Source: a virus. From it: 43,361 bases of DNA. This document shows positions 1 through 42,281 of this stretch, one piece after another; position 1 is the first letter of the stretch; each line of letters begins with the position of its first letter. The stretch is from positions 1 through 43,361 of the IMG/VR virus record IMGVR_UViG_3300018422_000113. One strand, 5' to 3'. Position numbers and translations under genes: made by a program. A model generated the notes under the pieces. That model ran no database searches and had not been told where the DNA came from. It saw only the letters and a list, made by a program, of their open reading frames with translations.

Positions 1-210
1 TCATGGCTGCATCCCCAGCCTGGTTTCGATCCGGGCGAGGACGGCGACCAGCGCCTTATCGGTTTCGAGCCGGTCCTTGTCGATCGCGTCGCGGCGCTCG
101 ACCTCGGCCTTGCGGTTCGCCTCGCGCCGGCCGGTGTCCCAGACGAGGTAGAAGATCAAAGCGATCAGCGGCGGCGCGCCGATCAAGGTCTGAAGGATTG
201 CGGGGTCCAT
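1..210 (-). CDS. Holin-like small membrane protein
   Basis: A 69-residue protein with one hydrophobic segment at about residues 8-25 (LIGAPPLIALIFYLVW), followed by a charged, helical tail rich in Arg, Glu and Asp. This single-span layout with a charged C-terminus is common among phage holins and spanin-adjacent proteins, and the position at the end of the late operon, after the tail spike, fits a lysis role. I chose ATG at 210 because a GGTGAG-type ribosome site lies upstream; a GTG at 216 is possible and adds two residues. The stop codon is the first codon of the window, so an endolysin may lie just outside. Function is inferred from size, topology and place only. Confidence 0.6.
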   Translation of the reverse strand: MDPAILQTLIGAPPLIALIFYLVWDTGRREANRKAEVERRDAIDKDRLETDKALVAVLARIETRLGMQP

Positions 211-242
211 TACCACTCACCCGGACCGATGGGTGGTGTGGA

Positions 243-767
243 TCATGGCCCGACGCTCCGCGCGGCGTCCCAGTCGGCCGCGTCATACGCCGCCCTCATC
301 GCCGCCGCCGATCCGGCGACGGCGATCGCGGCGATCGTCGCGTCGGCCAGCCCCTCGACCGCGACCAGGCGCGCGTTGTTGAGCGCGATCGCCGCCTCGA
401 CCGCATCCATTTCCTGCGCCAGCGTCCGGTCGAGCGACGCCGCCCGCGCCGCGCCGAGGGGGTAATCTTCCGGGTCGGGCTCCTCGCCGGCCGCGCGGTA
501 CGCGGCGAGCTCGGCGGCCTTGATGTCGTAGACCCGCGAGCGCTGGATGTTGGTCAGGTCGGCCGCGACCTCGGACCGCAAGGCGTCGACGCGGGCCGCG
601 AGGATGTCGGACAGGATCGCCGGATCCTCGGCGAGCGCGCCGTCGACCAGGATCAGGGCCGCGGGCTCCATCGCCTCGGTTACGGGAAGGAACGCGCCGT
701 CCTCGAGCCCGCCGGGCAGGCTCGGGACGATTTCGGCGATCGCGCCGTCTCGGATGATCGCATACAT
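243..767 (-). CDS. Tail-spike-associated hypothetical protein (possible tail fibre assembly protein)
   Basis: 174 residues, starting MYAIIRDGAIAEI, three bases downstream of the tail spike gene. The first 45 residues look like a small beta domain, and the rest is Ala-rich and helical (about residues 50-165), probably coiled. Genes of this shape directly after a fibre or spike often encode fibre assembly chaperones or head-domain binding proteins; that is an argument from position, and I do not recognise a named family. No signal peptide or membrane segment is visible. Confidence 0.6.
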   Translation of the reverse strand: MYAIIRDGAIAEIVPSLPGGLEDGAFLPVTEAMEPAALILVDGALAEDPAILSDILAARVDALRSEVAADLTNIQRSRVYDIKAAELAAYRAAGEEPDPEDYPLGAARAASLDRTLAQEMDAVEAAIALNNARLVAVEGLADATIAAIAVAGSAAAMRAAYDAADWDAARSVGP

Positions 768-770
768 GGC

Positions 771-3596
771 TCAGCCCTTCCTCATGAAAAGCTCGAAGCG
801 ATGCCCGGTGACGCTCGCCGTGGCGTTGCCCGCCATCGTCATCGTGTGCGCGCCGGCCAAATCGAGCGCGGCGACCCTGTTGTTGTAGAGCGCGAACAGC
901 GGCGAAGGGTTGTGCGGGTCGATCCACAGATAGTCGCCGACGCCGATCTCGCCGGCGAGCCAGGCCTGGTTGCCGTCGGGCCGGCGGAGGTTGGTCACAA
1001 CCGCGCTGCCGCTGGTGACGTCGCCGAGCAATATTTCGGAGGGCGTGTAGAAGCCGGTCTCGAGGAACTCGAAGACGCCGGTGGCGCCGTCGAACGGGAT
1101 GTAGAGCGCGTCATTGGCGCCGTCGTTGACGCCGGTCGTGTCGCGATAGCCGGTCAGCGCCTTGGCGATCACGGCGCCGGTCACATAATCCCAGCTCTCG
1201 ACATAATACCAGATGCCCGACGCGCTGTCGGAGAAGACTCGGCCGGGCTGCATCGAATTGTAGCGCGCGAACGGCTCGTTGACGCCCGAATAGCCGGTGA
1301 AGCTGAGGGTCCGCCCGCTGACGGCGTAGCCGGTGAAGTTCGACTTGATGACGGTGCCGACCCGCGACGGGACCAGGATTGCGTGGCGGTCGCTGAGGTG
1401 GGCCTTGGGGATCGCGCGGTGAAGCCAGTAGGGAAAGCAGGTCTGCCGGCTCGTCGCCCGATGGCCGAGATTGGTCCGAACGGCGCCGAGCCCGGTCGGC
1501 GCGGCGCCGCTGTCGAGATTGTAGTGGGACGCGGCGACGACATGCTCGTGGCTTCGCCCGCCGTGCGGCGTCACCAGGCCCAGGGTTCCGTTGTGCGCCA
1601 TCGCCCGCGCCACCGAAGGCGCCGCCGACTGGGCCGAAACCGCGACCAGGTTGAGGCCCTCGATCCTGAGCCTGACGACCATGAGCGGGCAAAGGTCGCG
1701 GACCGTGATCGTGCTGTCGGCGATCGAGAGGTTCGACGTGCCGTTGCCGTGCCAGGGCGCGGTCGGCTCGCCGACGACATAGGGCCAGACGCCGAGCCTG
1801 GTCGCCAGGTTGGGCGTCCAGAAGCCGAACGGGGTGCTCTCGATGCGCAGCGTCGCGTCGCCCGAGCCGCCATTGTAGAGGTCGCCCATATAGAGCGAGC
1901 CTTCCATTCGGATGCTCTGGAAGCCCATTTCGCCGCTCGAGGCGAGGCTGAAGTCGAACAGCTTGACGCAGGCGCCGATATCGCAATTCGACATGACCGC
2001 GCAGAACTGGCCGGTCTTTTCGCCATGGGCGCGGTTGGTGAAGGCGCAGTAGAGCCGCGCCATTCGCACCTTGCGCAGCTCGACCTGCCGGCTCTGCGTG
2101 TTGCCGATGCTGATGCCGTATTTGCAGCCTTCGATGCCGGCATTTTCGATCGTGACATAATCGCCCTGGCTGTTGCCCTGGCCGGGATGGACGACGATGC
2201 CGACGACCCAGCCGGTGATATAGACGCCGTCCATGTCGACGACCGACGTCTCGGGCCGGCCATATTGGGCCTGGGTGCCGATCCACGCCGGATCGCCGAG
2301 CGCCGGATAGGGGTCCGCCGGCGCCGCGCCCGAGAGAGCGTCGACCGCGACCCCGGCGCGGACCGCGTGCTGCAGGTCGCCGCCGGGGACCATGTCCCAG
2401 CTCGCCGACAGCGTTTCGTCGAGCAGGCTGGTCTGCATCCCGAGCAGATTGCCGAAGATGAAGGCGCGGTCCGGCCCCTGGATGCCGACGTCTTGGATCT
2501 GGACGGCGCGGCCGCCCTGGACGATCAGGCCGGGCCGGTCGAGAGCGGTGAACACCAGCTCGGTTCCGGCATGATGGAGCTGGCCGGCGAAGCCGCGGCC
2601 CGAGCCGCGCAGCCTGGACCGCGTCCAGACCGCGTCGGCGCCGTCCTTGAAGCCGCGGGTGACGAACAGGCTGTTGTCGAGCGTGAAGGTGCCGAGGCCG
2701 ACCTCGCCGTCGCCGCGCCACAGCGAAAGATAATCGCACCAGGCCTGGAGCCATTGCGCGTCGCTGTCCGTCGACAGCCGGAACGGCTCGGCGCGCTGGC
2801 TCGATCCGGCCAGCGTGAAGACCTTGCCGGCTGCGTCGGCGCGCCGGAACCGGAGCTCGAACGCGGCGATCGCCGCCTCCGCCGCCGGCGCCGTCAAGTC
2901 GTTGGCGACGCCCATGGCGGCGAGATCGGCGCCGCGCGCGGTGATCGCATCCTGCGATGCGTCGAGGACGTAATCGGCCGCGCCGCCGCCGCCGGGATAG
3001 GCTTTCGTCGTCGCGATCCGGTCGACGCCGGCGGGAATATCGAGCGTCGGCAGGATCGAAAATGCGCCGATCGCCAGGATGTTGCCGCCGGGATCGCCCT
3101 TCCATTCCTCGCCGACGTCGAGCAGCACGATCTCGCCGGTGGTCGGATCGGGGCCGAGCACCAGCCCGCCGCCGGTCCGCTCGGCCGCCGGCACCAGCTC
3201 GCTCTGCGCCTCGCCGCGCGGCACGCGCAGGGTCAGCGCCAGCGCCGCGTCCTGCTCCTGCTGGCTCATCGCGTTGCGGTCGGCGCTGTCCTCGTGGCTG
3301 GCATTGGGGAAATCGTCGCGGTCGGTATAGATGGTCGGCTGGGTCCTGGGCGTCACTCGCCGGATCTCGAGCGTCGCTCCGGCGACGCCCGCCGCGAGCT
3401 GGACCTTGCCGGTCGGCGCCGCCGCTTTGCCGTCGCCGGTCACCGCATAAGCGGAGACGGCGCTCTCGACGCCGGCGACCCAGCGCGACACGACGATCTG
3501 CGAGGCCGCCAGATATTGAAACGGGATGGCGTAGAGCGTCGCCGGATCCCCGGTCTCGACATAGGTGGCGCGCGTCGGCAATGCGGCGACGGTCAT
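771..3596 (-). CDS. Tail spike with T7-fibre-like N-terminal domain
   Basis: 941 residues. Residues 1 to about 125 match the pattern of the T7 gp17-type virion-binding domain: IPFQYLAASQIVVSRW, then TLEIRRVTPRTQPTIY and a helix with DRNAMSQQEQDAALAL. The rest reads like a right-handed beta-helix of the pectate-lyase-like spike class, with strand repeats such as GVYITGWVVGIVV and YVTIENAGIEGCKYG, and a separate C-terminal domain of about 200 residues. It should bind host surface glycan and may depolymerise it; catalytic residues cannot be assigned by eye. An AGGAGC ribosome site precedes ATG 3596. No C-type lectin variable tip is seen, and there is no reverse transcriptase nearby, so a BPP-1-style diversity element is not present. 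Confidence 0.85.
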   Translation of the reverse strand: MTVAALPTRATYVETGDPATLYAIPFQYLAASQIVVSRWVAGVESAVSAYAVTGDGKAAAPTGKVQLAAGVAGATLEIRRVTPRTQPTIYTDRDDFPNASHEDSADRNAMSQQEQDAALALTLRVPRGEAQSELVPAAERTGGGLVLGPDPTTGEIVLLDVGEEWKGDPGGNILAIGAFSILPTLDIPAGVDRIATTKAYPGGGGAADYVLDASQDAITARGADLAAMGVANDLTAPAAEAAIAAFELRFRRADAAGKVFTLAGSSQRAEPFRLSTDSDAQWLQAWCDYLSLWRGDGEVGLGTFTLDNSLFVTRGFKDGADAVWTRSRLRGSGRGFAGQLHHAGTELVFTALDRPGLIVQGGRAVQIQDVGIQGPDRAFIFGNLLGMQTSLLDETLSASWDMVPGGDLQHAVRAGVAVDALSGAAPADPYPALGDPAWIGTQAQYGRPETSVVDMDGVYITGWVVGIVVHPGQGNSQGDYVTIENAGIEGCKYGISIGNTQSRQVELRKVRMARLYCAFTNRAHGEKTGQFCAVMSNCDIGACVKLFDFSLASSGEMGFQSIRMEGSLYMGDLYNGGSGDATLRIESTPFGFWTPNLATRLGVWPYVVGEPTAPWHGNGTSNLSIADSTITVRDLCPLMVVRLRIEGLNLVAVSAQSAAPSVARAMAHNGTLGLVTPHGGRSHEHVVAASHYNLDSGAAPTGLGAVRTNLGHRATSRQTCFPYWLHRAIPKAHLSDRHAILVPSRVGTVIKSNFTGYAVSGRTLSFTGYSGVNEPFARYNSMQPGRVFSDSASGIWYYVESWDYVTGAVIAKALTGYRDTTGVNDGANDALYIPFDGATGVFEFLETGFYTPSEILLGDVTSGSAVVTNLRRPDGNQAWLAGEIGVGDYLWIDPHNPSPLFALYNNRVAALDLAGAHTMTMAGNATASVTGHRFELFMRKG

Positions 3597-3605
3597 TTTC
3601 TGCTC

Positions 3606-3836
3606 CTATCCATCGTCGTTGAAGGCCCGGGGGTGCTTGCTGGCTTTCTCGATCGGCAGCACCTTCTCCACTTCTTCGGTGATCAGCGTCAGCATGCAGC
3701 CGAGGTTCTCGGCCTGGACGTCGCAACCGCGCGCCTGATAGCTGACGAGGTCGGCGAGGCAGCGCAGCGCGCCCAGCACCATGGCGGCCTGCTCTTCGGT
3801 GTCGCGCGGGCATGGCCCGATATCGTCGGTCATCAT
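3606..3836 (-). CDS. Small hypothetical protein between antirepressor and tail spike
   Basis: 76 residues, starting MMTDDIGPCPRD and containing CLADLVSYQARGCDVQAENLGCM. A longer open frame exists upstream, but the ATG at 3836 overlaps the stop of the BRO gene (ATGA) and is preceded by GGGAGAGGC, so this is the likely start. It looks helical and soluble, with four cysteines. No family recognised. It is translationally coupled to the antirepressor and sits 9 bp before the spike gene. Confidence 0.65.
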   Translation of the reverse strand: MMTDDIGPCPRDTEEQAAMVLGALRCLADLVSYQARGCDVQAENLGCMLTLITEEVEKVLPIEKASKHPRAFNDDG

Positions 3837-4558
3837 GCCTCTCCCTCGCCGGAGGGACGGAACCAGACCTTGCCGTTCCAGTCGCCGCGCCGCTGCTGGC
3901 GGCGCTCCCAGCCGAGCACGGTCAGCAGCGAGCCGATCCGAAGCCTGGTCGAAGTGTCGAGGTCCTCGGGCGCGATGCCGAGCCCGGCCGCGGCCTCGGC
4001 GACGGTCGCGCTCTGATGTTCGGCCATCCACAGCTTGAGCGGCTCGGCCAAAGGCTCATCGGCATTGGGCTTGCTCTCCGCGACGGCGGGCGGCAGCCCG
4101 AGCCGGGTCCAGATCCGGCGCGCGCCGGCGGGCCCGTAGAGCCGCCGCGCCTCCCTCACCACCGCAACGGCGGCGGTGAGCCGCGTCGGATCGTAATCGT
4201 TGGGCAGCTCCTCGTAGCGCTCATGGCCCGCCAGCGCGTAGCTGCCATCGCGGCGCAGGCTCGGCAGCACCTCGGACGTGACCCATTTGCGGAACCGGCG
4301 CGCCTCGGCGCGGCGGGATTTGAGGATCGCGGCGTACAGGCCGCTCTCAGAGACGATCGAAATGTCCTGGTGACCGCCAAGGGTACTCAGAATGTGAGTA
4401 CCCTTTTCGTCGTCGTCGAGGTTGCGAGCCATGTTGAAGGCGTCGCGATACCCCAAAACCGCCGCGACATCGGTCGCAACGAACCAGGGATCGCCCGCGA
4501 TCATCACCACACGGACCGGATTTTCGTCGAATTGATAGCTTACAAGAGCGTCGGTCAT
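3833..4558 (-). CDS. BRO-family phage antirepressor
   Basis: 241 residues. Residues about 8-107 form a BRO N-terminal domain: VRVVMIAGDPWFVATDVAAVLGY is characteristic (first strands and helix), followed by the ISIVSESGLYAAILKSR segment and FRKWVTSEVLPSLRRDGSY. The C-terminal 110 residues contain a winged-helix-like end (RIGSLLTVLGWERRQQRR, then VWFRP), as seen in several phage DNA-binding proteins. BRO proteins with such tails usually act as antirepressors that bind the prophage repressor or DNA. Its place is odd: it lies inside the late virion gene block rather than the control region. Ribosome site GGAG lies 8 bases before ATG 4558 and is embedded in RNA structure. The gene is preceded by a 254-bp non-coding leader shared with a divergent gene. 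Confidence 0.85.
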   Translation of the reverse strand: MTDALVSYQFDENPVRVVMIAGDPWFVATDVAAVLGYRDAFNMARNLDDDEKGTHILSTLGGHQDISIVSESGLYAAILKSRRAEARRFRKWVTSEVLPSLRRDGSYALAGHERYEELPNDYDPTRLTAAVAVVREARRLYGPAGARRIWTRLGLPPAVAESKPNADEPLAEPLKLWMAEHQSATVAEAAAGLGIAPEDLDTSTRLRIGSLLTVLGWERRQQRRGDWNGKVWFRPSGEGEA

Positions 4559-33744: not shown

Positions 33745-34059
33745 TCATGCGGCCGCCTGCAGTTCGGGCGCGAGAGCGGCACCCTCCAACAGCGGCGCAG
33801 GCGCCAGCACCCGAAGCGAAGCCGGCTGGTCATCGCCCATTGGCAGGACAAGCTGCTCAAGCACCGGCAGGTTGTAAAAATCGTTTGGCGTCACCGCTCC
33901 GAAGGTCAGCCGAAAGATCGACAGCATGAAGCGGCGCCGCGGGATCATCGGGTCATGCGCGCGCTCTATTTGGCTGATAAAGCTTTGCTCGCAGCCGAGG
34001 CGATCCGCCAGCTGCGCCTGCGTCATGCCCTCGCTAATTCGCCATTCCGCCAGCCGCAT
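33745..34059 (-). CDS. Cro-like XRE-family regulator
   Basis: 104 residues from ATG 34059 (a GTG at 34068 is possible). Helix-turn-helix at about 2-37: RLAEWRISEGMTQAQLADRL followed by GCEQSFISQIERAHDPMIPR. The C-terminal part (FRLTFGAVTPNDFYNLPVLE) is unique. It is the first gene of the leftward early operon, directly behind promoter PL, and faces the repressor gene, the classical Cro position. Confidence 0.78.
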   Translation of the reverse strand: MRLAEWRISEGMTQAQLADRLGCEQSFISQIERAHDPMIPRRRFMLSIFRLTFGAVTPNDFYNLPVLEQLVLPMGDDQPASLRVLAPAPLLEGAALAPELQAAA

Positions 34060-34090
34060 CGAAATCACTCGCCCAAACCCAACTGGCAGC

Positions 34091-34118
34091 GATATGTCGG
34101 GCCGTTATATTACGTCAA
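34091..34118 (-). promoter_or_regulatory. Leftward early promoter/operator PL
   Basis: On the minus strand: TTGACG (34118-34113), TAATATAACG, then CGACATATC ending at 34091. The -35-like TTGACG and a CATATC-type -10 are about 16 bp apart. It matches the rightward element at 35237-35264 in 23 of 28 positions. A further GACATA lies just upstream (34121-34126). Confidence 0.65.
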
Positions 34119-34142
34119 TGGACATAGCGACAAGGAGGGTGC

Positions 34143-34167
34143 AGAATATCACGCCGTGGCATATTCT
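34143..34167. promoter_or_regulatory. Inverted repeat AGAATAT-N11-ATATTCT before the repressor gene
   Basis: Perfect 7-bp half sites in the 5' region of the repressor gene, ending nine bases before ATG 34177. It is not related to the GACATA motif. It may be an autoregulatory operator or part of an RNA structure controlling the repressor. A strong AAGGAGG at 34132-34138 lies in front of it, unusually far from the chosen start. Confidence 0.5.
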
Positions 34168-34176
34168 GTACTCGTC

Positions 34177-34518
34177 ATGCGACCGGGCAACAGACTTCGT
34201 GCGATGCGCAAGGCGGTCGGGCTCACACAGGTCGAGCTCGCCGACCGAGCCGGCACCAAGCAGGAAACGATCAGCCAGTATGAGAATGGCCGGCGGCCGC
34301 TGACGCTGGACTGGATGAAGATATTCGCGCGCGAACTCGGCTGCAGCGCCGCCGATCTCCTGGACGAGGATGATAATCCGGATCGTCTCGCCGACGACGA
34401 ACGCGAGATTATCGGCCGCTACCGATCGGCTAACAAGTTGCAGCGCGAAACCCTGCAGCGAGTGACGGAAGCCGTGGTCCCATACCACGCGGCTCCACCT
34501 GAAGAAGAGGCAGCGTGA
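34177..34518 (+). CDS. CI-like XRE repressor without peptidase domain
   Basis: 113 residues. Helix-turn-helix at about 5-60: RLRAMRKAVGLTQVELADRA, TKQETISQYENGRRPLTLDW and FARELGCSAADLL. A short acidic and helical tail follows (DDNPDRLADDEREIIGRYRS), with no S24/LexA-type self-cleavage domain. It should hold the lysogenic state by binding the twin operators. The start is uncertain: ATG 34177 has no ribosome site nearby; GTG 34156 is in frame, and AAGGAGG at 34132-34138 is too far for either without structure. A leaderless transcript is an alternative. Confidence 0.8.
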   Translation: MRPGNRLRAMRKAVGLTQVELADRAGTKQETISQYENGRRPLTLDWMKIFARELGCSAADLLDEDDNPDRLADDEREIIGRYRSANKLQRETLQRVTEAVVPYHAAPPEEEAA

Positions 34519-34694
34519 AAACAGCCTTCATCGTTTGGCAACTGGGCTCGCTTGCGACCTTTGTTTATCTGACCTTCTTCGACGGCTACAATTACAATGC
34601 CTGGAACTGGCTCATTGCAATACCAGTGAACGTTTTCCTCGGCGAAATCTGGCCGATTTATTGGGCAATCCTCCGGCCCTTCGTCGAAACATAA
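34515..34694 (+). CDS. Small membrane protein co-expressed with the repressor
   Basis: 59 residues, GTG start overlapping the repressor stop (GTGA). Two hydrophobic spans, about 3-21 (AFIVWQLGSLATFVYLTFF) and 31-54 (WLIAIPVNVFLGEIWPIYWA), joined by DGYNYNAWN. Very similar small WxIAIPVNxFLxxIWPIYW proteins occur beside phage repressors and in prophages in my recollection. Expression from the lysogen makes superinfection exclusion or lysogenic conversion plausible. Confidence 0.7.
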   Translation: MKTAFIVWQLGSLATFVYLTFFDGYNYNAWNWLIAIPVNVFLGEIWPIYWAILRPFVET

Positions 34695-34695
34695 G

Positions 34696-35220
34696 GTGCG
34701 CATCCCGACTGCCCTGTCGCTGTCAGTTCTGGCCCTAGCGTGCTCGGATGATTTTGTGGTCGCAGACGGCAATGGATCCTTGGCAAGAGATCCCAGTCAC
34801 CAGATCGAAAACCGTCAAATTTCAACGGGCACCGCGAGGCTGTCCAACGAGCGCGAACCGGCGGCTACACGCCCCGAGCTGTCGATCGGGAATGGCTATG
34901 AGGCCATCGACCCAGAGCGCGCCGCGACGGTCCGCGAGGCGACCAACGCATGGCATGGCTGCATCATCTACGGAATCGGGCAAGTCGACGATCTCAGCGA
35001 GCCGGCGATCGCCGTCGCCGAAGCCGCCATGGCAGGTTGCATTCGTGCGGAGACCAACCTCGAGGATCGCCTGTTCGAGGCGATGCGCGGGAGCGACGAC
35101 CCACGCGAGGTCCGCGCCGTCGCGCATGATATGGTCGCGGGTTTTCGAGAACGGATGCGCTCCTATGCAATCCGAATGGTGTTGGCCAAACACCGAGAAG
35201 AACGCGGGGCCGCGCACTGA
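34696..35220 (+). CDS. Putative secreted lipoprotein, lysogeny operon
   Basis: 174 residues from GTG 34696, one base after the preceding stop. N-terminal signal MRIPTALSLSVLALAC with a Cys at 16 in an LALAC context, an imperfect lipobox, then a polar region. The mature part is helical with conserved-looking cysteines (HGCIIYGIGQ, AGCIRAETN) and an ELSIGNGYEAIDPERAATVR segment. The likely location is the periplasm or membrane surface. Part of the repressor transcript, so probably made in the lysogen. Function unknown. Confidence 0.6.
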   Translation: MRIPTALSLSVLALACSDDFVVADGNGSLARDPSHQIENRQISTGTARLSNEREPAATRPELSIGNGYEAIDPERAATVREATNAWHGCIIYGIGQVDDLSEPAIAVAEAAMAGCIRAETNLEDRLFEAMRGSDDPREVRAVAHDMVAGFRERMRSYAIRMVLAKHREERGAAH

Positions 35221-35236
35221 CTCTGAACATAACAGC

Positions 35237-35264
35237 TTGACATAAAATAACGCTGCGACATATC
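35237..35264 (+). promoter_or_regulatory. Rightward early promoter/operator PR
   Basis: TTGACA (35237-35242), TAAAATAACG, then CGACATATC ending at 35264; a -10-like TATCAA begins at 35261. It matches the PL element position by position except at five places. It also contains GACATA twice (35239, 35257), and ACATAA lies 18 bp further upstream (35228). It heads the gene chain that starts at 35295. Confidence 0.65.
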
Positions 35265-35294
35265 AAGACTCCACGACCACTCGTGGAGGTCTCA

Positions 35295-35763: not shown

Positions 35764-36114
35764 ATGTCTCTCGCACCGGCCCGGACCGATCTCTTGCCCG
35801 CCGAACGGCAGGCCGGCGTGTCGCTCTGGTATATCGCCAACCGCGCCGGTTATGGCGAGCGCGGCGCGGACTGGATCCTCAATTATGTGCGGCTGCTCCA
35901 CGCCAATGAGAGCTTCCCGCCGCCGCTGCCCTTCTTCCCGCTCAACGGCAGGAAGAAAGCGGGCATCCATTTCAAGTCGCGCTGGCTGCGCGCCGCGGTC
36001 GACGCCTGGTTCGACGGCTTCATGCCGCCCCAGCTCGCCCTCGTCGCCGGCAACGCGCAGGCGGCGCGCGACGCCGAGCTCCTCGACGCCCGCGCCGCGG
36101 AGCTGGCGGCATGA
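35764..36114 (+). CDS. Hypothetical early protein
   Basis: 116 residues: LWYIANRAGYGERGADWILN, then FPPPLPFFPLNGRKKAGIHF and SRWLRAAVDAWFDGFMPPQL. The region resembles phage DNA-binding or excisionase-like small proteins in its aromatic and basic pattern, but no firm family. ATGA coupling to the next gene. Confidence 0.65.
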   Translation: MSLAPARTDLLPAERQAGVSLWYIANRAGYGERGADWILNYVRLLHANESFPPPLPFFPLNGRKKAGIHFKSRWLRAAVDAWFDGFMPPQLALVAGNAQAARDAELLDARAAELAA

Positions 36115-40982: not shown

Positions 40983-42281
40983 ATGGCGAAATTCACCATC
41001 TCCCGGCTCGTCGGCAAGAGCAACAAGGCCGGCCTGACCACCTGGTACTGGCAGCCCAGCGCCACCCTGCGCAAGCGCGGCTGGGCGCCGACCCGGCTCG
41101 GCGCCGGCATCGGCGAGGATCCGCCGCAGGACGTGGTCGACGCCGCCCGCAAGCGCAACGCCGAGGCGGACGGCCCGGCCATCCCGGCCGCGCAGCTGCG
41201 CCGGATCCAGCGCCCGCTGACGGTCGCGGAGGCGATCCGGCGCTTTCGCGAAGCAGGCTATCCTTCGGTCAAGACGCCGGGCTCGGCCGTCGCGCCGGCC
41301 ACCGCCCGCCAGTACAAATCGAAGCTCGCCCGCCTCGAGGCCTGGGCCGGCGCCGTCGCGCTCTCGTCGATCACTCCGGCGCGGGTCGCGATCTGGCGCG
41401 ATACTCTGATGAAGCCGGCCAGGAAGGGCCGCTGGGCCGGCCAGGTCCGCCACCATGCCGCCCACGAAACTCTGCGCGTCGGCCGCACCCTCTTCGCCTG
41501 GCTCGAGCAGAAGGGCCTGGCGCCGCGCGGCTCCAACCCGTTCGCCGCCTTCGGCCTCGCCGCGCCGGCGCCGCGCGACGCGATCTGGTGGCCGGCCTCC
41601 CGCGAGGCGATCGCCGCGGCCGCCAAGGACAGCCCGAGCATGGCGCTCGCCATCGACCTCGCCTTCCAGATCGGACAGCGCGAGGCGGACCTGCTGAAAC
41701 TGTCGATCGCCCAATATGTCGAGATCCCGCGCTACAAGCTCGATCCCGACGTCGCCGCGGCGCTCGCCGGCGCCGACGGGCGGGTGACCGGCATCCGCCT
41801 TCGCCAAGCCAAGGGCAAGAGATGGGTCGAGATCCCGGTCGTCGGCGCCACCCGCGCGGCGATCGAGCGCGAGATCGCGGCTGCAAGGAAGGCCGGCCGG
41901 ACGACTTTGCTCTGGGACGAGGAGCGGAAAGCGACCTGGGGCGCGCCGAGCCCCGAGGCCGGCCAGCGCTACTTCATACGCCGTTTCGCGGAACTTCGCG
42001 CCGACGCGGCCGCGGCCGCGGCCAAGGCCGGCGACGAGGCGCTGGCGGCCGAGCTCGCCACCCTCCAATATCGCGACTTCCGCCGCACCTGCGTCGTCCA
42101 TCACGGCGAATTGGGCGCCAGCGACATCAACATTGCCGCGATCACCGGCCACATTCTGGACGAGGTCAGGAAGATCCTCGAGACCTACATGCCGAGGACG
42201 ACGGGCAGCGCGGCGCGGGCGATCGCATTATCCGCGTCTCGAAGTATTACTTCGAGCCGAGCAGAGGAGAGGAAGGCGTGA
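40983..42281 (+). CDS. int: Tyrosine integrase
   Basis: 432 residues. N-terminal arm-binding part (1-75), SAM-like core-binding domain (about 78-190), catalytic domain from 200. Catalytic residues: Arg233 in IGQREADLLKL, Lys near 277-279 (RQAKGKRWVEIP), Arg367 in YRDFRRTC (the usual His of HxxR is replaced by Arg364), His390 in AAITGH and Tyr402 in ETYMPRT. It should integrate the phage at an att site that I could not identify in the window. The GTG of the next gene overlaps its stop. Confidence 0.9.
   Translation: MAKFTISRLVGKSNKAGLTTWYWQPSATLRKRGWAPTRLGAGIGEDPPQDVVDAARKRNAEADGPAIPAAQLRRIQRPLTVAEAIRRFREAGYPSVKTPGSAVAPATARQYKSKLARLEAWAGAVALSSITPARVAIWRDTLMKPARKGRWAGQVRHHAAHETLRVGRTLFAWLEQKGLAPRGSNPFAAFGLAAPAPRDAIWWPASREAIAAAAKDSPSMALAIDLAFQIGQREADLLKLSIAQYVEIPRYKLDPDVAAALAGADGRVTGIRLRQAKGKRWVEIPVVGATRAAIEREIAAARKAGRTTLLWDEERKATWGAPSPEAGQRYFIRRFAELRADAAAAAAKAGDEALAAELATLQYRDFRRTCVVHHGELGASDINIAAITGHILDEVRKILETYMPRTTGSAARAIALSASRSITSSRAEERKA

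Follow-up and report, generated by a model that had tools for sequence, protein, structure and literature searches.

The window analysed here is the whole 43,361-nucleotide stretch of the IMG/VR virus record IMGVR_UViG_3300018422_000113. A gene on the plus strand (34177-34518) codes for a 113-residue repressor with a helix-turn-helix (HTH) of the 434/SinR type followed by a C-terminal pair of helices. Divergent from it on the minus strand (33745-34059) is the first gene of a leftward operon, which codes for a Cro-like HTH protein of 104 residues whose relatives are 46-79% identical. Onward from the Cro-like gene the left strand carries terminase, head-tail adaptor, tail and virion genes. The right strand comprises mostly small genes with no assigned function, and an integrase-like gene at 40983-42281 in the distal part of the right operon. 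Between the repressor gene and the right promoter lies a slot for variable accessory genes (34535-35220, plus strand), recognised as open reading frames only.

Two elements of 28 bases are situated at the heads of these operons. The left one, on the cro side and comparable to lambda PR, occupies 34091-34118 on the minus strand and reads TTGACGTAATATAACGGCCCGACATATC from 34118 to 34091. The right one, comparable to lambda PL, occupies 35237-35264 on the plus strand and reads TTGACATAAAATAACGCTGCGACATATC. A -35 box (TTGAC in the left element, TTGACA in the right) is followed in both by a spacer of 16 nt and a -10 box CATATC, and both elements are conserved in the loci L021 and L003. The identity of 23 out of 28 positions given for the pair in the preliminary description is exact, the mismatches being at positions 6, 10, 17, 18 and 19 as claimed. 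A single GACATA motif had also been placed beside both elements; it is present exactly on the left (34121-34126), but the sequence upstream of the right element is GAACATA. No third copy at three or fewer mismatches occurs in the whole 43,361-base record.

Of 60 dinucleotide-shuffled versions of the 2-kb region, 2 contained an inverted pair of 28-mers of equal or better similarity, so that the similarity by itself is only moderately unlikely and constitutes weak evidence. This frequency is what a recent duplication or a chance resemblance of no regulatory meaning would have in its favour. Such an origin is refuted by the seven other loci in which both promoters keep the sites and their geometry, and is left with practically no probability. 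The pair is judged to be real because it is conserved in relatives, and not because of the similarity alone. A search for the pattern in related phages, as had been proposed earlier, revealed both elements at the same places in IMGVR_UViG_3300049434_000092 (TTGACGAAATATAACGGGCCGACATAAC and TTGACATAAAATAACGCTCCGACATATG), whose Cro-like protein and repressor are respectively 78% and 77% identical to those of the window over the matched segments only. When 2.9 million viral contigs were searched for the exact 17-base pattern, this close relative was the single match, since other lineages have a different operator core. The looser pattern ATAA-N9-ATA occurs three times in the 43 kb, every time at the twin promoters, against 0.1 occurrences in shuffles. 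At the nucleotide level the region had no match among GenBank phages, and a scan of the genome collection from a two-sequence alignment gave no relatives.

The twin elements appear to represent two members of a set of five putative operators, referred to as L1, R1, R2, M1 and a weaker M2. L1 (34092-34108, minus strand, ATAACGGCCCGACATAT), which is comparable to OR1, lies over the spacer and -10 box of the cro promoter. M1 (34148-34164, plus strand, ATCACGCCGTGGCATAT), comparable to OR3, lies across the predicted repressor promoter. The OR2-like M2 (34124-34138, plus strand), a weak site or half site beginning ATAGCG, is located 24 bp upstream of M1 with its centre near position -41 relative to the predicted start of the repressor transcript, and only its left half is good. 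On the right, R1 (35229-35245, plus strand, ATAACAGCTTGACATAA) overlaps the -35 box of the right promoter and R2 (35247-35263, plus strand, ATAACGCTGCGACATAT), 18 bp from R1, lies over its spacer and -10 box. The description of the operator as one block of 28 bp reaching from -35 to -10 is thus rejected: the right element is made up of two adjacent sites, and the left one has L1 only. M1 and M2, both at the repressor's own promoter, had been overlooked.

A matrix derived from the sites L1, R1 and R2 has M1 as its sole strong further match in the 43-kb scan (18.1 bits, the next match scoring 10.5). With matrices trained only on other lineages, R2, R1 and L1 are the top three matches in the window and M1 is outside the top matches; in L025, L030 and L074 the four best matches to such matrices are precisely the four sites.

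The elements had been described as devoid of dyad symmetry. An imperfect dyad, ATAACG-NNN-CGACAT, is in fact centred on the variable positions 17-19, and in the left copy, at L1, it is seen from the sequence to extend to ATATaaCGGcCCGacATAT with 7 of 9 pairs. Complementary pairs over 24 sites from six phages amount to 51% for a 15-bp centre and 42% for a 17-bp centre, compared with 18-36% for other centres. The position of the dyad centre therefore appears ambiguous between the 15-bp and the 17-bp frame; the ATA conserved towards the 3' end would also serve as part of the -10 box. Every site has a degenerate right half.

A sister group of six loci (L069, L071, L075, L076, L078 and L080), with repressors 41-49% identical, has near-perfect palindromes of 17 bp, GTAAGC-N5-GCTTAC, in the same layout, on the cro side and around the right TTGAC. 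Together with the imperfect dyad of the window, these palindromes at the corresponding sites leave the unusual mode of recognition that had been suggested without support. In L069 the palindromes are found at -89, +672 and +705 from the repressor start, as they are in the five other members; the two at the right promoter of these prophages are 33 bp apart around TTGAC, and the Cro-like proteins of the group are very divergent. The recognition helix tracks the operator, the form Q-x-x-I/V-S-Q occurring with ATAA sites and S-K-x-x-I/V-S with GTAA sites.

The proposal that the twin elements are predicted promoters heading the cro-like leftward operon and the rightward operon, with operators embedded in them, is supported. 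In comparison with sigma-70 promoters, which have hexamers similar to TTGACA and TATAAT at a distance of some 16-18 bp, both elements have TTGAC, and CATATC matches the -10 consensus at 3 of 6 positions at a spacing of 16. An automatic simple promoter scan listed neither element; their -10 boxes are not E. coli-like. Transcript starts are predicted near 34084 (minus strand) for the left element and near 35271 (plus strand) for the right one. The repressor gene is predicted to have an extended -10, TGG-CATATT at 34157-34165, with a weak -35 and a transcript start near 34172, about 5 nt before the ATG, which would make the transcript near-leaderless.

The comparison of loci covers eight members of the clade in five lineages (the window with L021; L023, L024 and L029; L025; L030; and L074). 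L1, the weak M2 and M1 lie between 34059 and 34177, and the same arrangement is present in the seven other loci, which belong to phages or prophages. The spacings are invariant in all eight (L1-M1 54 bp, M2-M1 24 bp, R1-R2 18 bp), and the counterpart of M2 begins with ATAA in 7 of 7 related loci. A tandem of the R1/R2 type is present in all eight loci, and the distance by which R1 follows the start codon of the repressor ranges from 392 to 1052 bp. Core positions 5-6 are CG at four of the five sites of the window and at all five of L021, at none of the 15 sites of L024, L030 and L074, and are mixed in L025. This concerted drift of the core within phages (ATAACG or ATAAGC) has a Fisher P of 0.001 with one sequence per lineage, a test that depends on a single main change (CG/GC) in a few lineages.

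Such joint drift would be expected if a protein acts in trans on all sites of a phage, and not if the elements were promoters only. The cross-phage comparison thus argues well for the earlier proposal that one repressor acts at both early promoters. The alternative that the elements are near-consensus housekeeping promoters of alphaproteobacterial type, with no shared operator and agreeing only because promoters agree, accounts for part of the identity through TTGAC and the xATAxx -10 at 16-nt spacing; promoters of the form TTG-N(16-18)-TATA and an extended -10 box of the GCTATA type are known in alphaproteobacteria (PMC4842269). The best conserved part of the elements is nevertheless the spacer word ATAACG, which is no promoter element and recurs at R1 and M2 with no -10 box after it. 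This drift across the sites of a phage and the full palindromes of the sister group also stand against it, and we consider such promoters lacking an operator very improbable.

The preferred reading, considered highly probable from the sequence comparisons, is that of sigma-70 promoters overlapped by sites for the repressor, and probably for the Cro-like protein as well, in a mirrored immunity region of the lambda type. The sources of the relatives are Sphingomonas sanguinis, S. parapaucimobilis, Croceicoccus mobilis and metagenome bins of Sphingomonas, and the hosts are therefore probably sphingomonads.

The structure model of the repressor, built from an alignment of the proteins of the window and the related loci, comprises the HTH and two helices at 73-84 and 87-100. 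The HTH matches dh434 (1sq8) by sequence (E-value 3.7e-8) and also by fold. A C-terminal peptidase domain, which in two-domain repressors serves cooperativity and RecA-dependent cleavage, was looked for and not found, Pfam giving HTH domains only, and for this reason the repressor is placed outside the two-domain CI family, even though the system has the lambda layout. In phage 434, a glutamine contacts the A at operator position 1 and the site starts with ACAA. The likeness to 434 lies in the type of HTH and in the glutamine that starts the recognition helix, together with an A as the first base of the site (here ATAA); the differences are sites of 15 or 17 bp as against 14 and a short repressor that has no C-terminal domain. 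For the 933W repressor, a modelled contact between a lysine and position 2 of the operator, a G-C pair, has been described (PMC3317979).

The recognition helix of the Cro-like protein (QSFISQ) closely resembles that of the repressor (QETISQ), the two proteins of the window having 17 of 38 HTH residues in common, including the Q and the I-S-Q of this helix. The Cro-like protein may bind the same sites as the repressor. It could even be proposed that the sites are operators mainly for the Cro-like protein, or for another phage regulator, and not for the 113-residue repressor; the similar helices would permit this, and the Cro of PY54 binds a single operator (PMC4488713). A location of M1 over the repressor's own promoter argues against such an assignment, as does the sister group, in which the repressor helix changes with the operator whereas the Cro-like proteins diverge much further. 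We regard it as quite improbable, and the 113-residue repressor is retained as the presumed binder.

In lambda, the repressor gene is flanked by OR and OL, the latter 2.3 kb away (PMC3708714), and CI bound at OR1 and OR2 represses PR and activates PRM, which is shut by OR3 (PMC3708714; PMC4488713). The region described here is similar in having the repressor gene between two operator clusters, with divergent cro and repressor genes separated by three sites, of which one covers the cro promoter, another the repressor promoter and the third lies in between. The second cluster (35229-35263) follows at a distance of about 1 kb, beyond the repressor gene and the accessory slot, over the other early promoter, and the integrase-like gene is near the end of that early operon. 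It differs from lambda in its mirror orientation, a distance of about 30 bp between L1 and M2, degenerate right half-sites, another operator sequence, and two OL-like sites 18 bp apart in the place of three. Unlike lambda CI, the 113-residue repressor has no C-terminal domain for cooperativity and looping.

Under the lambda scheme L1, M2 and M1 would act as OR1, OR2 and OR3, and R1 and R2 as OL. In the lysogen, the repressor would occupy L1 and R1/R2 as an HTH dimer and keep RNA polymerase from using the two lytic promoters. From M2, whose centre falls at an activator position, it may stimulate its own promoter with the weak -35 and extended -10. In the order of affinity presumed here, M1 would be filled when the repressor is abundant, limiting its own synthesis. 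The Cro-like protein would probably favour lytic growth from the same sites.

Other phages offer partial parallels. The immB regions of N15, phiKO2 and PY54 also have a lambda-like cro/repressor region with operators between the divergent genes (PMC4488713), but with other operators, and the second cluster downstream of the repressor is a feature of the present region. PY54 has leaderless transcripts (PMC4488713), comparable to the near-leaderless start predicted here for the repressor. Phage 933W has a switch of the lambda type in which cooperative binding was not seen (PMC3317979) and is a possible model for a repressor that has no cooperativity domain, though its repressor is a different lambdoid one with its own operators.

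The region is a clear fresh example of a familiar type of switch in little-known phages of Sphingomonas-type bacteria and not a new mode of recognition. It provides five putative sites with exact coordinates and natural variants, and a recognition helix that co-varies with the operator, for uncharacterised temperate phages. If the repressor is sufficient, the lambda layout would work with a much smaller protein that has no domain for cooperativity, looping or SOS induction.

A stem-loop is predicted at 35266-35291 (plus strand), where the right transcript would begin; its 3' arm includes the Shine-Dalgarno sequence GGAGG. Its energy is -14.6 kcal/mol (z -2.2) in the window and -16.0 (z -2.95) in L021. 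Most of the 14 loci compared retain it, with compensatory changes; in L023, L024 and L029 it is weak. The stem pairs were counted relative to the Shine-Dalgarno sequence; MAFFT misaligned the hairpins and RNAalifold was thus uninformative. No Rfam family matched in the region. The stem-loop suggests translational control of the first gene of the right operon. It is also present in L021, L025, L030 and L074 and in the sister loci L069, L071, L075, L076 and L078, and the compensatory changes (A-T, G-C, C-G, T-A) are at stem positions adjoining the Shine-Dalgarno sequence.

A more far-reaching possibility, which we consider rather unlikely, is that a repressor of about 113 residues with no cooperativity domain runs a full switch of lambda layout by means of adjacent, strongly asymmetric sites, each with an ATAA half-site and a promoter-derived half, 18 bp apart, together with a leader stem-loop hiding the ribosome-binding site. 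The asymmetry of the sites would then be functional.

A 1337-residue open reading frame at 3-4016 (plus strand), at the left end of the record and on the strand that does not carry the structural genes, has no PHROG family, is overlapped by other long frames and may not be a gene. A small protein of the right operon (35764-36114, plus strand), with no Pfam or PHROG family match, resembles, on visual comparison, the proteins encoded first in the right operons of L024 and L025 (FP-PLP ... SRW...AVD-WF) and is perhaps a small DNA-binding, excisionase-like protein. The accessory slot holds different small genes in L021, L024 and L025, on either strand and some of them membrane-like; it occupies the position of lambda rex, and its genes are possibly involved in exclusion or conversion.
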